Shown in pieces: positions 17,795 to 36,467 of a DNA stretch of 36,467 nt. The stretch covers positions 1 through 36,467 of the forward strand of contig NZ_JAQOSP010000107.1 of the NCBI RefSeq assembly GCF_030068475.1. The letters are read 5' to 3'. The stretch's first letter is position 1. The number at the start of each line of letters is the position of its first letter. The notes beneath the pieces were generated by a model. It did no database searches, was not told the origin of the DNA, and worked only from the letters and a program-made list of their open reading frames with translations. A program made the position numbers and the translations under genes. The stretch comes from Roseofilum acuticapitatum BLCC-M154. GTDB lineage: Bacteria > Cyanobacteriota > Cyanobacteriia > Cyanobacteriales > Desertifilaceae.

Positions 17795-20700
17795 ATGCAT
17801 CGAATCGCCGCAACTCCGGGAGGATGGAACCCTCAAGATGAAGGAGTGGTTATCCTCGAACAAACTCCAGCCCCTATCGTTATTCTCACCGCAGCCGATA
17901 CAGATATCCAAACCTTAGCGGCAACTCTCCCCCATCTTCCGCCCCAGTTTCCCGATATTCGGGTGGCGAATCTGTTGCACTTGGTGCAGCAACTGTCGAT
18001 TGATGATTACACAGAGCGGGTATTGCAGCACGCCCAGGTGATTGTGGTTCGCTTGTTGGGCGGACGGGCTTATTGGTCTTATGGCTTGGAAGTGGTAAAG
18101 GAGTTGGCTGAAAATCAGGGTATTGCCTTGGTGGTGATGCCTGGTGATGATGCTCCAGATATGGAGTTGATGAGCCATTCGACGGTTTCTTTGCAGCAGG
18201 TTAACCAATTATGGCGCTATTGGAGCGAGGGGGGCGTGGAGAATATTCGTAATGGGTTGTTGTTTTTAGCGGGTTCTGTAGGGGTGGGTTCCGCTACGGG
18301 GCATCAAACACAAACTATTTCCCCTTCTCACCAAGATACAGCACTTTCCACTGTTATGAGCCAGAAAGATCCCCCTAAATCCCCCTTAAAAAGGGGGACT
18401 GTTCCTGCCCCCCTTTTTAAGGGGGGTTGGGGGGATCAAAAGACCGGGTATAGCAGCGAAAACGGCTCTATTGGTGAACCCGCCCCTACCATTGGGTGGG
18501 AAGGGGACAAATTTCCTGAACCGAAACCCATCCCAAAAGTGGGCGTATTGCCGCAAAATCAGGATTTAGGGCAAAATTGGCCAAAAGTGGGAATTCTCTT
18601 CTATCGTGCCCATTATTGCGCCGGAAATACGGCTCCAATTGAGGCGCTGTGTCAGGCTTTAGTGCAGCGCCAGTTAACACCGGTTCCTGTTTTTGTTTCT
18701 TCGTTGCGCGATAATGCTCCGCATCGTTGGCGCGATCGCCACTGCCAAGAAGAAATTCTACAGCTTTTCCAACCTCCAGACAACCCACCCATCCAAGTTC
18801 TGCTTAATACCACCAGCTTCGCCATCCAATCCCTACAAACCAAGGAATCAACCCCCTTATTTTTCTCCATGTTGGATGTCCCCACCCTGCAAGTCATCCT
18901 CAGCAGCTCCACCGTCGAGCAATGGCAACAAGGCAACCGGGGACTCCTACCCAGAGATGTAGCCATGAATATCGCCCTACCGGAAGTAGACGGCAGAATT
19001 ATCACTCGCGCCATTTCTTTCAAGGCGACACAAACTTACAATGAGCGCCTAGAAACCGATGTGGTGCAATATGAACCCGTTGCTGACCGGGTTAACTTTG
19101 TGGCTGATTTGGCTGCTAACTGGGTGAAACTGCGGCAAAAGCCGGCCCCAGAGCGCAAAATTGCGGTGATTTTGGCCAATTATCCCACCCGTGACGGACG
19201 GCTGGCCAATGGTGTCGGGTTGGATACTCCCGCCAGTTGTGTGGAGATTCTGGCGGCTTTGCAACAGGCAGGATATCAGTTAGAGGATATTCCGGAAACG
19301 GGGGATGATTTAATTACTCGCTTAACCGCAGGAGTGACGAATGACTGGGAGGGGAATGAGATACGGTTGAATCGTGGGGGAATGGGGGAATGGGGAGATG
19401 GGGAGATGGGGTTATCTCTGTCTCAAGATGATTATGAACGCATGTTTGAGCAGTTGCCGGTTGAGGTGCAACAGGGTATTAATAACCGATGGGGTGGTAT
19501 CGGGGATGGTGGTGTAGGGGCGGGTTCACCCATATCTGGATGGCAAGACGATAGGACTCGTGAACCCGCCCTCCCGGAACGTTGGGTTACACAACCGATG
19601 ACTTCTTCTTCGTACCCAGATGTAAGGGCGGGTTCACAAACATCTGGGTGGGAAGACCAAAATTTGGGTGAACCCGCCCCTACGGGAGGCGAAAATGTGG
19701 GTGAACCCGCCCCTACGGGGTTTGCTATTGCGGGGTTAAATTTGGGCAATGTGTTTGTGGGAATCCAACCGTCGCGGGGATATGATCTAGACCCAAGCTT
19801 AAATTACCATGCGCCAGATTTAGAGCCTACGCCCCATTATTTAGCCTTTTATCAGTGGATTAAAGACATCTTTCAAGCGGATGCGGTGATTCATGTGGGC
19901 AAACATGGGAATTTGGAATGGTTACCCGGCAAGAGTTTAGCCCTGTCTGAGTGCTGTTATCCGGAGGTGGCGTTAGGGACAATGCCGCACTTGTACCCCT
20001 TTATTGTGAATGATCCGGGGGAAGGTTCGCAAGCGAAACGGCGATCGCAAGCCGTTATCCTCGATCATCTTACCCCACCCCTGACTCGCGCCGAACTCTA
20101 CGGCCCCCTGCAACAGCTCGAAAACCTAGTTGATGAATATTATGAAGCCGATAGTTTAGACCCCTCCAGACTACCCGCTATCCAATCTCGAATCACAGCG
20201 CTTATCCGCCAAGAACATCTCGACCAAGATTTAGGCTTAACTCCAGAAGACTTAACTGGGATTACCTGCCAACTTTCCACCCGCATTGATGGCTATCTGT
20301 GCGAACTCAAAGAAGCGCAAATTCGCGATGGTCTACATATTTTCGGTCAATGTCCCCAAGGGCGACAACTGCGAGATTTGATCATTGCCATCTCCCGCTC
20401 CCGTCCCCAGGGAATTACCCGTGCTTTAGCGGAAGATTTGGGTTTAGACTTTGACCCCCTGACCACTGACCCCACGACCCAGTTAGCGCCCCCCGTGGTG
20501 ATTGAAAACAAAACCTATCACCAAGTCGGAGATGTCGTGGAGCAACTAGAAACATTAGCGGCAAATTATGTAGACCAATTATTGGTAGGGGCGGGTTTCG
20601 CTTCGCGACATGAAACACCAACCATCTTGTCTTCCCACCCAGATACAGCCCTTCGCAATGTTGTGACGAGCCAGACAGATCCCCCTAAATCCCCCTTAAA

Positions 20701-22159
20701 AAGGGGGACTTTTACTACCCCCCTTAAAAAGGGGGGTTGGGGGGATCGAGATGTACCGCATAGCAGCGAAAATTGCTGTATTGGTGAACCCGCCCCTACA
20801 ACGGAAAAGGAACTCACCTGGATCGCCGAAACCCTGTATCCTCAACTACAGGCTACCCAGCAAGAAATCACCAACCTCTTGCGCGGACTAGACGGGCGCT
20901 ACATTGCCAGTGGGCCATCGGGCGCTCCGACGCGGGGACGGGCAGAAGTGCTACCGACTGGACGCAATTTTTACTCGGTTGATATTCGAGCAATTCCCAC
21001 GGAAACGGCTTGGGGAATGGCGCGGAAGGCTGCGGAAGCGTTGATTGAACGGTATACCCAGGAAAATGGGGAGTATCCGAAAACACTGGGTTTATCCATG
21101 TGGGGAACTTCAGCCATGCGGACGGGAGGAGAAGATTTGGCAGAGGCTTTATGGTTGTTGGGAGTGCAACCAGTTTGGGATGGCCCATCTCGTCGCGTGG
21201 TGGATTTTGAGGTGGTTCCGGTGTCGGTTTTGGGACGGCCGAGGGTGGATGTGACGTTGCGAATTTCGGGATTTTTCCGGGATGGGTTCCCGAATTTGAT
21301 CGATTTGTTTAATCAGGTGGTGGAGAAGGTTGCAGCATTGGATGAGCCGGAAGAGGAGAACCCATTAGCGGGGACGGTGCGCCGGGAAACGGAGAAATGG
21401 CGAGAGTTGGGCTTAAGTGAAGAGCAAGCAAAGGGGCGATCGCTCTATCGCATGTTTGGATCGAAACCGGGCGCGTATGGTGCAGGGTTACAGGGTTTGA
21501 TTGAGTCGCAAAATTGGCGCTCCGATGAGGATTTAGCCCGCGCTTATCTCAATTGGAGCAGTTACGCTTACACGGGGCAAGGGGACGGTCAAAGTGCGCC
21601 GGAAGTTTTTGCCCAACGCTTACAAGATTTACAGGTGGTTTTGCACAATCAAGATAACCGGGAACATGATTTGTTAGATTCGGATGATTACTATCAGTTT
21701 CAAGGGGGATTAACGGCGGCGGTGCGGTCATTAAAGGGAGAAAATCCTACGGTTTATTTTGGCGATCATGCGGTAATGAATCATCCGAGAATTCGCACAT
21801 TGCAAGAGGAAATTAACCGGGTTTATCGATCGCGAGTCATCAACCCTAAATGGATAGCCGGTGTGATGCGACACGGGTATAAAGGAGCCTTTGAAATGGC
21901 GGCAACGGTAGATTATCTGTTTGCCTATGATGCCACCACCCATTGTGTAGCCGATCATATTTATGAGGGCGTAAGTGATGCGTATTTACTCGATCCGAAG
22001 GTACAGGAGTTTGTGGAAAAGCACAATCCTTGGGCGCTGCGAGATATGGCAGAACGCTTATTAGAAGCGCATCAGCGCGGTTTGTGGACAAGTGCGAGTC
22101 TGGAAAGGGTGGATCAGTTGAGGGCGATCGTTCATCAAGCGGAGGCGAACATTGAGTAG
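17795..22159 (+). CDS. cobN: Cobaltochelatase subunit CobN-like, expanded by in-frame repeats
   Basis: 1454 residues. CobN/ChlH-family signatures include VIHVGKHGNLEWLPGKS and PFIVNDPGEGSQAKRR (about 700-750), YSVDIRAIPTETAW, LGLSMWGTSAMRTGGED and GVMRHGYKGAFEMAATVDY near the C-terminus. CobN is the large subunit inserting Co2+ into the corrin ring with ATP-driven CobS/CobT-type or ChlI/ChlD partners, none of which is here. The protein is about 200 residues longer than I expect for cyanobacterial CobN. The excess is explained by repeat-derived segments at residues 162-233, about 527-540, 574-641 and 931-1002, all in frame; without the three GTAGGGG-family segments it would be about 1242. Catalytic motifs lie outside them. 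No cobalamin riboswitch was recognised in the 222 bases upstream. Confidence 0.9.
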   Translation: MHRIAATPGGWNPQDEGVVILEQTPAPIVILTAADTDIQTLAATLPHLPPQFPDIRVANLLHLVQQLSIDDYTERVLQHAQVIVVRLLGGRAYWSYGLEVVKELAENQGIALVVMPGDDAPDMELMSHSTVSLQQVNQLWRYWSEGGVENIRNGLLFLAGSVGVGSATGHQTQTISPSHQDTALSTVMSQKDPPKSPLKRGTVPAPLFKGGWGDQKTGYSSENGSIGEPAPTIGWEGDKFPEPKPIPKVGVLPQNQDLGQNWPKVGILFYRAHYCAGNTAPIEALCQALVQRQLTPVPVFVSSLRDNAPHRWRDRHCQEEILQLFQPPDNPPIQVLLNTTSFAIQSLQTKESTPLFFSMLDVPTLQVILSSSTVEQWQQGNRGLLPRDVAMNIALPEVDGRIITRAISFKATQTYNERLETDVVQYEPVADRVNFVADLAANWVKLRQKPAPERKIAVILANYPTRDGRLANGVGLDTPASCVEILAALQQAGYQLEDIPETGDDLITRLTAGVTNDWEGNEIRLNRGGMGEWGDGEMGLSLSQDDYERMFEQLPVEVQQGINNRWGGIGDGGVGAGSPISGWQDDRTREPALPERWVTQPMTSSSYPDVRAGSQTSGWEDQNLGEPAPTGGENVGEPAPTGFAIAGLNLGNVFVGIQPSRGYDLDPSLNYHAPDLEPTPHYLAFYQWIKDIFQADAVIHVGKHGNLEWLPGKSLALSECCYPEVALGTMPHLYPFIVNDPGEGSQAKRRSQAVILDHLTPPLTRAELYGPLQQLENLVDEYYEADSLDPSRLPAIQSRITALIRQEHLDQDLGLTPEDLTGITCQLSTRIDGYLCELKEAQIRDGLHIFGQCPQGRQLRDLIIAISRSRPQGITRALAEDLGLDFDPLTTDPTTQLAPPVVIENKTYHQVGDVVEQLETLAANYVDQLLVGAGFASRHETPTILSSHPDTALRNVVTSQTDPPKSPLKRGTFTTPLKKGGWGDRDVPHSSENCCIGEPAPTTEKELTWIAETLYPQLQATQQEITNLLRGLDGRYIASGPSGAPTRGRAEVLPTGRNFYSVDIRAIPTETAWGMARKAAEALIERYTQENGEYPKTLGLSMWGTSAMRTGGEDLAEALWLLGVQPVWDGPSRRVVDFEVVPVSVLGRPRVDVTLRISGFFRDGFPNLIDLFNQVVEKVAALDEPEEENPLAGTVRRETEKWRELGLSEEQAKGRSLYRMFGSKPGAYGAGLQGLIESQNWRSDEDLARAYLNWSSYAYTGQGDGQSAPEVFAQRLQDLQVVLHNQDNREHDLLDSDDYYQFQGGLTAAVRSLKGENPTVYFGDHAVMNHPRIRTLQEEINRVYRSRVINPKWIAGVMRHGYKGAFEMAATVDYLFAYDATTHCVADHIYEGVSDAYLLDPKVQEFVEKHNPWALRDMAERLLEAHQRGLWTSASLERVDQLRAIVHQAEANIE
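18278..18489 (+). repeat. Palindromic mobile repeat, full copy 1, in frame inside cobN
   Basis: 212 bp. Left terminus GTAGGGGTGGGTTCC, right terminus GGTGAACCCGCCCCTAC: terminal inverted repeats. Inside, in order: a degenerate ATACAGC palindrome, a ~70-bp core palindrome starting GATCCCCCTAAATCCCCC and ending GGGGTTGGGGGGATC, then ATAGCAGCGAAAACGGC. It is read in frame as cobN residues 162-233 (VGVGS ... PLFKGGWGDQ ... GEPAP). No clear target-site duplication. Confidence 0.85.
19374..19411 (+). repeat. 8-bp G-rich tandem repeat inside cobN
   Basis: GGGGGAAT and GGGGAGAT octamers, the complement of the (CCATCTCC)n array at 9152-9225. Translated in frame as GGMGEWGDGEMG, a low-complexity insertion with no counterpart expected in CobN. 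Confidence 0.75.
19514..19716 (+). repeat. Cluster of short mobile-repeat copies inside cobN
   Basis: Two short copies and one half copy. 19514-19573 runs from GTAGGGGCGGGTTCAC to GTGAACCCGCCCTCC. 19622-19683 runs from GTAAGGGCGGGTTCAC through ATCTGGGTGG to GGGTGAACCCGCCCCTAC. A further right end finishes at 19716. Both left ends start exactly on a codon boundary in the same frame as the full copies, giving VGAGS or VRAGS and GEPAPT. Confidence 0.85.
20585..20799 (+). repeat. Palindromic mobile repeat, full copy 2, in frame inside cobN
   Basis: 215 bp, GTAGGGGCGGGTTTCG to GGTGAACCCGCCCCTAC, with the same internal order as copy 1: ATACAGCCCTTCGC, core GATCCCCCTAAATCCCCC ... GGTTGGGGGGATC, ATAGCAGCGAAAATTGC. 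Cobn residues 931-1002 (VGAGF ... KGGWGDRD ... GEPAPT). The copy differs from copy 1 by substitutions and 3 extra bases, so the frame was kept. Confidence 0.85.
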
Positions 22160-35136: not shown

Positions 35137-36033
35137 ATGGCGTATTCTCAACCGCAGCCCCTGCAAGACCAATTCCTCTTGCACATGGGGCAGCAGATTT
35201 TTAACCATAATCGCAATAGTGAAGCGCAAAAACGTTGCTTCTGGCATCGGTGGCATCCAGATAACTTCAAGGAGCAACATCCAGCCATTAAAGTTAAGAT
35301 AACCAAGGACTTAAACAGCAATTCTGCTCTGAGTAACATCAACAAGACTATTCAGGAAGTGGTCGAAAAAATCAAAACTACTTTTGGTCAACAAATGGAA
35401 CTTGATGGGGTTAACCTTGACGATTTGAAGCACAAAAAAACTGGTGCGCCGAGTGAGTCCGATGTTGGCCCCTGGAAAGTCTGTTATGATTGGCTGTGGG
35501 ATAAAGCCTTTCCTCGGTGGGCATTTGGGAAATTGCAGAAACAGCAGCAAGTGGCTGCAAAACCGGGATGGTTGGAGCTAGTTCCCAAGGAGCTAGTTCC
35601 CAATCAGGAAGACCACCGTATTGCCGTGGGGAGACCGAATAATCCACCCCAAGAATTACGAGTGAATCAGGGATATCAATTGCAATTGCAAGTCCCGGTT
35701 CCGGGGTATTTGCTGTTGTTGCTTCGGGAAAAAGATGGCAGTTATTCCCTTTGTCCTTCTGGGGCATTTTCCAAGCAGTATGAACTCTCGGAGTCGGTGG
35801 AGTGGATACCCAGAGTTAATGCTGACTATCAGGATATGACTTTTAATGTGGGAGAGGCGGAATTTTTGGCGATTGTTTTGCGCGACGGTTGGCCGTTTTC
35901 CGATTTTCCAGAGGACGAAATACCGGAATTAACGGGAGCGCAAATGGTCGAGGTTTGGGAGACATTACAAACAGTAGAATGGCAAGGATTTTATCGCCGG
36001 TATACGGTGGTGGGGGCAGGTTCACAGGATTGA
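35137..36033 (+). CDS. DUF4384-like C-terminal domain protein
   Basis: 298 residues. N-terminal ~150 residues helical and unassigned (QQIFNHNRNSEAQKRCFWHR, INKTIQEVVEKIKTTFGQQ). From about 185, LRVNQGYQLQLQVPVPGYLLLLLREKDGSYSLCPSG and NVGEAEFLAIVLRD resemble the DUF4384 beta domain often attached to caspase-like or kinase proteins in cyanobacteria. The final residues VVGAGSQD are read from the mobile-repeat terminus GTGGGGGCAGGTTCAC, and the TGA lies inside the repeat, so the natural 3' end has probably been replaced. Start at ATG preceded by a GTAGGG-type site. Confidence 0.6.
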   Translation: MAYSQPQPLQDQFLLHMGQQIFNHNRNSEAQKRCFWHRWHPDNFKEQHPAIKVKITKDLNSNSALSNINKTIQEVVEKIKTTFGQQMELDGVNLDDLKHKKTGAPSESDVGPWKVCYDWLWDKAFPRWAFGKLQKQQQVAAKPGWLELVPKELVPNQEDHRIAVGRPNNPPQELRVNQGYQLQLQVPVPGYLLLLLREKDGSYSLCPSGAFSKQYELSESVEWIPRVNADYQDMTFNVGEAEFLAIVLRDGWPFSDFPEDEIPELTGAQMVEVWETLQTVEWQGFYRRYTVVGAGSQD

Positions 36034-36072
36034 TGTTTGGGTGTCCAAAATCTGGGTGAAACCTGCCCCTAC
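36010..36072 (+). repeat. Short mobile-repeat copy at a gene end
   Basis: 63 bp, GTGGGGGCAGGTTCAC to GGGTGAAACCTGCCCCTAC, homologous to 19622-19683 in cobN. It supplies the last seven residues and stop of the DUF4384-like gene. GTG sits on a codon boundary in the same frame as in cobN. Confidence 0.8.
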
Positions 36073-36091: not shown

Positions 36092-36154
36092 GTAGGGGCG
36101 GGTTATACCACAATCTAGAATACCTATCGATAACTTTGCTGAACCCGCCCCCCC
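36092..36154. repeat. Second short mobile-repeat copy, intergenic
   Basis: GTAGGGGCGGGTT at the left, GAACCCGCCCCCCC at the right, ~63 bp, interior unrelated to the other short copies. Confidence 0.65.
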
Positions 36155-36310: not shown

Positions 36311-36467
36311 GTGGGGGCAGGTTTACAATACAGCGCTTTGCGCTGTATCGGTGGACAGTAGGAAAAGATCCCCCCTTGCCCCCCTTAAAAAGGGGGGAAT
36401 AGGAAAGTCCCCCTTTTTAAGGGGGATTTAGGGGGATCAAGATGTCCCACATAACAGCGAAAACTGC
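36311..36467. repeat. Full mobile repeat, cut by the window edge
   Basis: Left terminus GTGGGGGCAGGTTTAC, perfect ATACAGCGC palindrome at 36330-36346, core from GATCCCCCCTTGCCCCCC to GGGATTTAGGGGGATC, then ATAACAGCGAAAACTGC at the last base. The right terminus should lie just beyond. The core is flipped relative to the cobN copies. No ORF in 36034-36467. Confidence 0.8.

Follow-up and report, generated by a model that had tools for sequence, protein, structure and literature searches.

The repeats that interrupt cobN in the window analysed here, a stretch of 36,467 nucleotides, probably belong to a family of 62-bp palindromes (type B) that resides mostly within genes in this genus, spreads by transposition and survives in phase as a neutral passenger. 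According to the mechanism that we favour, copies would be spread by RAYT-dependent or hairpin-dependent transposition, selection would spare only those insertions that are in phase and located in permissive loops, and the encoded peptides would enlarge the proteins without being selected. Orthologous inserts are observed to differ, by multiples of three, as a result of tandem growth, collapse to 29 bp, opposite orientation and nesting of another repeat. Type B itself is probably non-autonomous and related to the type A repeats of 63 bp found next to RAYT (REP-associated tyrosine transposase) genes.

The host gene, cobN, encodes the cobaltochelatase subunit CobN in a single open frame of 1454 aa on the plus strand (17795-22159; Pfam CobN-Mg_chel, 1351.6 bits; structural relative 9uk9_A), and repeats occupy three sites in it, 18278-18489, 19514-19716 and 20585-20799. 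The terminus of the repeats is matched 14 times in the window with up to three mismatches, nine of these within cobN, compared to a mean of 0.34 and a maximum of 3 in 100 shuffles. Site 2 holds two type B palindromes of 62 bp on the plus strand, at 19514-19575 (VGAGSPISGWQDDRTREPALP, hairpin of -29.5 kcal/mol) and 19622-19683 (VRAGSQTSGWEDQNLGEPAPT, -31.2 kcal/mol), followed by a tandem piece of 33 bp (19684-19716, plus strand) that repeats the right part of type B and is missing in the relative G005. Sites 1 and 3 hold composite inserts of 212 and 215 bp, respectively, in which sequence comparison identifies type B in minus orientation with 18 bp added and a MITE-like element inserted into it; G005 has the same composite at site 1. 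The initial annotation had described four copies of one repeat inside cobN with the frame kept open. The frame is indeed unbroken across 1454 codons, and the four left ends fall on codon boundaries as proposed (offsets of 483, 1719, 1827 and 2790 from the ATG, each divisible by 3), but the full copies turned out to be nested composites and the 33-bp piece adds a fifth, partial copy. The right ends encode GEPAPT, except for that of the first short copy, which gives REPALP, and the in-frame gain put at about 210 residues includes spacer residues, the repeats proper amounting to 584 nt or about 195 residues.

The type B unit has the ends GTAG...CTAC (GTAGGGGCGGGTT...AACCCGCCCCTAC). The two hairpins of site 2 and that of a third copy (-38.7 kcal/mol) each beat all 200 shuffles, with stems of 15 to 17 pairs and a loop region of about 28 nt, and a folded type A copy also did better than all of its 200 shuffles. 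GTA(G) and (C)TAC are paired in the folds of 19622-19683, of L241:2997-3058 and of the type A copy, while the ends are unpaired in the fold of 19514-19575. The first four bases of type B are conserved in 92, 87, 84 and 67% of 82 in-gene copies. In the genome from which the window comes (G000, 5.22 Mb), the terminus occurs 154 times with at most one mismatch, compared to 3 times for the reversed pattern. Rfam yielded three matches on GC-rich hairpins, far under the gathering scores and judged to be due to chance.

In G000, the census of palindromes covered the regions around all 45 exact terminus places and around the one-mismatch places among those listed, and in the relatives those around type B matches in the genus, six genomes in all; since the relatives' regions were picked by a type B query, ratios of A to B are meaningful only in G000. 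It comprised 202 palindromes of 55-66 bp with ends within 3 mismatches of 13, which were sorted, according to how closely they resembled one type A copy or a hand-made type B consensus, into 71 type A, 102 type B (90 of them at 62 bp) and 29 unclear ones; that consensus was drawn mainly from in-gene copies and may favour such copies in the classification, and three type B entries of G003 each represent an alternative choice of ends for a single element. In the fetched regions of the six genomes, ORFs of at least 300 aa contain 76 of the 90 type B copies of 62 bp, all 76 in phase 0, and 78 of the 102 of any length, 77 of them in phase 0. By contrast, none of the 71 type A copies (63 bp) lies in such an ORF, the longest covering ORF having 184 aa. 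Among the unclear palindromes, 9 of 29 are in long ORFs; six of these use phase 0 and the other three phase 1, a phase otherwise represented by one 61-bp type B copy. In G000 alone, 20 of 23 type B copies of 62 bp are found in long ORFs versus 0 of 56 type A copies (Fisher p = 7e-16). Against a gene-dwelling habit stand the 14 of the 90 62-bp copies outside long ORFs, three of these entries having an alternative 63-bp reading. The genome search suggested in the initial annotation thereby places the family in frame in 14 ORFs of G000, cobN included. Near the contig end, outside ORFs of 300 aa, the window also contains a pair of type A palindromes (36010-36072 and 36092-36154) and an additional single end (36311-36326).

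The common phase follows from the composition of the unit. Among the 76 in-gene copies of 62 bp, 150 of the 152 strand readings are open in phase 0, compared to 12 in phase 1 and 18 in phase 2, which are closed by the TAG of the left end and the TGA or TAA of the right end. As the other phases normally contain stops, a type B insert leaves the gene open only in phase 0, and as the unit is nearly symmetrical, the open phase is identical on both strands and the insert can lie in either direction. Relative to the coding strand, 45 copies are oriented one way, 36 the other, and 2 are unclear (p = 0.37). A frame designed into the repeat is thus unneeded as the cause of the common phase, which is not an independent sign of such design. 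As to the earlier suggestion that a built-in frame lets the repeat spread into genes, types B and A contrast sharply in G000, and an open frame may help the family to spread in this way. The untranslated strand is open in 78 of 82 cases, a value reached in 0 of 200 random-substitution simulations but in 7 of 200 draws of a column-resampled null, and antisense openness was therefore downgraded as evidence, being barely above the latter.

It is plausible, without being likely, that palindromes insert anywhere and that the intragenic type B copies are those that were spared or are hard to delete with the frame, with no preference for genes. The phase is forced by stops, and most of the genome is coding, with ORFs of at least 300 aa covering 55% of the terminus-fetched regions. 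However, the 20 of 23 type B copies exceed this background (p = 0.002) even though roughly two of every three phases are not tolerated, and type A, whose ends are almost identical, is absent from long ORFs in all 56 cases. Since 63-bp type A copies mostly have an open phase 1 (87 of 104 strand readings), an open frame does not by itself account for the contrast between the two types.

In regard to mobility, eight Y1_Tnp matches are present in G000, and type A is directly beside at least three of them, at REPtron-like loci in which Y1 transposase genes have type A upstream or downstream (C36:56355, C76:6182 and C124:27068; L198, L199 and L196). Of the three type A-flanked proteins, two pass the cut-off of 80 bits set by NCBIfam for REP-associated tyrosine transposases, with 82.9 and 83.3 bits, and the remaining one scores 61.6. 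Among the Y1_Tnp loci, within the terminus places listed, none of the type B copies was adjacent to a RAYT gene. A RAYT transposase may be what moves type B. Relatives of the glutamate synthase, QueA and IleRS hosts provided no clean type B empty site, because those without the element also differ around it. Concerning its range, 291 genomes of the order were queried with type B and 27 gave a match at E 1e-5, with up to three candidates scored per genome; six of the 27 are of the same genus. Four members of the family from other genera gave 0 matches, and at 14 loci outside the genus (with 1.5-kb flanks) 0 of 16 elements lay in a stop-to-stop frame of at least 300 aa (longest 203). In this small sample, the gene-dwelling habit seems special to the genus.

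The 14 ORFs of G000 with type B copies (13 and cobN, Pfam-scanned) include Cmr2/Cas10, a glycosyltransferase, TamB, a hydantoinase/oxoprolinase, QueA (which we take to be the tRNA ribosyltransferase-isomerase), two glutamate synthases, a subtilase with DUF4114, an eCIS core protein and a WD40 protein. The host called IleRS is a class I tRNA synthetase with an FPG/IleRS zinc finger and a CAAD domain according to Pfam, and for two host ORFs Pfam gives no match at 1e-5. Five of the enzymes are covered by domains over most of their length; of the six inserts that they carry, 5 are located between Pfam domains, at 467 and 849 in the glutamate synthases, 921 in IleRS and 643 and 722 in the oxoprolinase; the sixth, at 300 in QueA, is within the single Pfam domain of that protein. 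Orthologues of the Cmr2/Cas10 host were represented by weak matches only, in 2 of 5 genomes.

Comparison among the species of the genus indicates that many inserts are old and remodelled, as the 83 in-gene phase-0 copies correspond to 49 sites and 17 of these are common to at least two genomes. Both orientations occur at six of the 17. At three of the six, the element looks as if it was inverted in place: after inverting one sequence of the pair, which improves the match, interior identity is 0.89 for QueA (G001/G000), 0.89 for the TamB-family protein (G001/G003) and 0.81 for IleRS (G001/G003), while among pairs from different sites 0.3% reach 0.89, 2% reach 0.81 and 7% reach 0.75. In QueA, the variant end GTAAGGGC switches sides along with the interior in the alignment as read by eye, which suggests inversion of the whole element. 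The other three sites, with inverted identity of at most 0.72, may represent replacements or separate insertions. A change in orientation gives an unrelated middle peptide, WEDEN versus SSSHQD. In one of the glutamate synthases, G001, G002 and G004 are without the element, G000 and G005 have the 62-bp form, and G003 has a 29-bp palindrome. The latter, GTAGGGGCGGGTTTGAAACCCGCCCCTAC, is near-perfect and stands at a contig break (C118/C129, L379/L383), where G000 has the 62-bp form (L239, around 849). In 104 of 108 comparisons between orthologues, a total that includes reciprocal ones, the length difference was divisible by three.

Substitutions were compared by codon position in orthologous pairs with identities of 85% or more (22 pairs, some of them non-independent). 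Flanking codons differ by 5.7, 2.4 and 15.2% at positions 1, 2 and 3, insert interiors by 8.7, 8.7 and 9.1%, and the 13-bp ends by 1.0, 0 and 2.8%. Since the interior rates are flat across codon positions, the inserted peptide looks neutral, and selection on it is disfavoured. The ends change less than host synonymous sites, a comparison biased by the fact that elements are found by their ends; in 12 equal-length comparisons made regardless of recognition (11 were recognised), ends differ at 3 of 312 positions and interiors at 26 of 432. It is accordingly improbable that the peptide VGAGS...GEPAPT was selected as a protein module, serving as a useful linker and being copied around with coding DNA, and that the palindrome is a by-product. 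The peptide does recur in 14 ORFs of G000, mostly in linkers, and is kept in at least two species at 17 of 49 sites, but, besides the equal interior rates, its two orientations with unrelated middle peptides and the existence of orthologues without the insert speak against such a module.

For the comparison of CobN itself, 20 stretches were fetched and 16 full-length orthologous proteins were aligned with that of the window, leaving out G009, G010 and two G002 pieces, the last because a contig break splits that gene. GTAG-type inserts are present at all three sites, with differing content, in G005 (95% DNA identity to the cobN of the window over aligned columns) and G003. In G001 they are found at sites 1 and 2, with a G-rich tandem repeat at site 3, and in the G002 pieces at sites 1 and 2, while G004, of the same genus, has a cobN without them. 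A G-rich repeat similar to the one in G001 is also present in cobN of the window, composed of GGGGGAAT/GGGGAGAT units (19375-19412, residues 513-538, modelled as disordered). The GTAG-type peptide occurs at the three sites in 0 of the 12 aligned proteins of other genera. Residues 1-157, 263-567, 642-926 and 1003-1438 align to the solved CobN 9uk9_A, the inserts being the three gaps. The orthologue alignment proposed in the initial annotation, in which the segments differ or are missing in relatives, thus agrees with these gaps in presenting them as in-frame acquisitions. In a model of residues 1-700 (25 sequences, mean pLDDT 66.6), residues 165-238 (except residue 193) and 571-639 have values below 50 and no secondary structure; for the expected location in surface loops, this means that sites 1 and 2, which the model covers, are predicted to be disordered.

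Loops 1 or 2 of CobN contain unrelated low-complexity sequence in G006, G012, G019 and G022 (L100, L106, L107 and L108). Such low-complexity repeats in other genera, together with the tandem units seen here (the 33-bp piece, and a repeated GWEIQNIAEPQPAPT at site 1 of G003), are what would be expected if the inserts had grown in place through slippage and tandem duplication of low-complexity linkers, with no mobility. This origin is very improbable, as 14 ORFs of G000 share the 62-bp unit although most of them are unrelated by Pfam. Finally, an assembly error or a dead cobN is hardly credible: the G002 cobN is on two contigs and the G003 glutamate synthase is split at the element, but the separate genome G005 independently keeps the same frame at sites 1 and 2 at the mentioned DNA identity, contrary to the frame-breaking sequencing error considered earlier, 1454 codons are open with the conserved CobN segments retained, and the other family hit of G000 aligns to this CobN at 34% over the C-terminal part.

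The composite inserts at sites 1 and 3 are built on a scaffold of 80 bp rather than 62. The 18-bp extra segment of site 3 is TTCGCTTCGCGACATGAA (20597-20614, borders approximate), and a segment like it is also found in two 82-bp type A-like copies. The MITE-like element of site 1 (18337-18470, TA counted at each end) was recognised by a match to the CCCCCTAAATCCCCC family, which has 87 matches in the genome with palindromic hits counted on both strands. Its right end, GCTCTA, is degenerate, no empty MITE site was seen for site 1, and it contains an inner inverted repeat with two 26-nt arms that are 88% complementary (18372-18434). The element of site 3 (20644-20780, TA counted at each end) has the ends TACAGC/GCTGTA and was delimited by alignment to the G005 site, where the scaffold alone is present; the version with the MITE is longer by 135 nt (45 codons), with TA on both sides. 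MITEs with TA duplication are IS630/Tc1-like. In view of the terminal inverted repeats and TA duplication at site 3 relative to G005, insertion of a TA-duplicating MITE into an already in-frame insert would explain the two states, a precise loss of the MITE in G005 being conceivable as well. While its ends, TA borders and the G005 empty site are those of such MITEs, the inner element differs from them in being nested in another repeat inside a gene, where it adds its codons in frame. The composites of sites 1 and 3 are only 85% alike over 138 nt, so neither was recently copied from the other. Two more copies of the inner repeat are present in long stop-to-stop frames (L006 around 1504, 871 codons; L020 around 1503, 442 codons). 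The repeat also occurs about 35 bases from the starts of G000 contigs C22, C3, C130, C105 and C74 and from the ends of C46, C37 and C72, as if it were part of a longer repeat that broke the assembly. At CobN site 2 of L111 (G020, from another family), an in-frame piece resembles the right half of the inner repeat (CCCCCCTT..AAGGGGGGGTGGGGGGATC).

Several known systems resemble type B in part. Rickettsia palindromic elements (RPEs, such as eRPE-4) are described in the excerpted text of PMC3767692 as inserted in frame, at solvent-exposed sites common to species, with table lengths of 68-192 bp. Type B is likewise palindromic and in frame in many unrelated genes, at sites shared by species, but has 62 bp, and the excerpts contain no description of the in-place inversion with the frame kept that is apparent in type B. 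Type B works like an RPE in its behaviour, but we do not file it as such. Isoleucyl-tRNA synthetase and tRNA ribosyltransferase-isomerase are among the R. japonica RPE hosts in Table 1 of the same source, and thus appear in both systems (L238 and L345 here), which hints that some loops might be landing places more generally. Di Nocera et al. (2013, PMC3733652, in excerpt) described GTAG REPs, including the cyanobacterial GTAG-12, -15 and -16, and their association with RAYTs; most are intergenic and some intragenic, for which flexible linkers were proposed. Type B shares the terminal GTAG, but its GTAG pairs with CTAC, whereas the tag is unpaired in GTAG REPs, and its stem and loop exceed the 5-13 bp and 2-20 nt given in those excerpts, limits that the 29-bp form of G003 would fit. 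These differences concern the GTAG REPs as a group; type B might still correspond to GTAG-12, -15 or -16. REPINs of P. fluorescens are extragenic, with 14 of 1,067 occurrences of the most abundant 16-mers overlapping genes (PMC3116915, in excerpt). Inverted pairs of ends are a shared feature, and the clusters beside RAYT genes, for which that source gives Nostoc punctiforme examples, have a counterpart in type A. Type A resembles REPINs, being intergenic as GTAG REPs and REPINs mainly are, while type B does not as to location. In open-licence literature, judged by titles and the starts of abstracts and with most subscription journals outside its scope, no gene-dwelling palindrome family of cyanobacteria was recognised, and the type B sequence and peptide strings had no on-topic match by title and abstract in open-licence papers. 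Since intragenic REP linkers and RPEs were already described in the cited excerpts, the principle is known, and the new part is a coding-biased, reversible subfamily in cyanobacteria.

Bacterial palindromic repeats have mostly been described as intergenic, and type B runs the other way. As sister subfamilies with near-identical ends have opposite habits in one genome, the entry of a selfish repeat into coding DNA becomes testable. The apparent inversion in place with the frame kept, and the nested MITE, are comparable events in housekeeping enzymes. Tentatively, type B could be regarded as a palindromic lineage specialised for life inside genes, which its length, its ends and the absence of stops from one phase of either strand would turn into a reversible coding cassette. 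Such a cassette would enter, flip and be exchanged in essential enzymes with the frame intact, switching their linkers and acting as an in-frame landing pad for other mobile elements. The inserts described here show how junk-like DNA can become part of essential enzymes.
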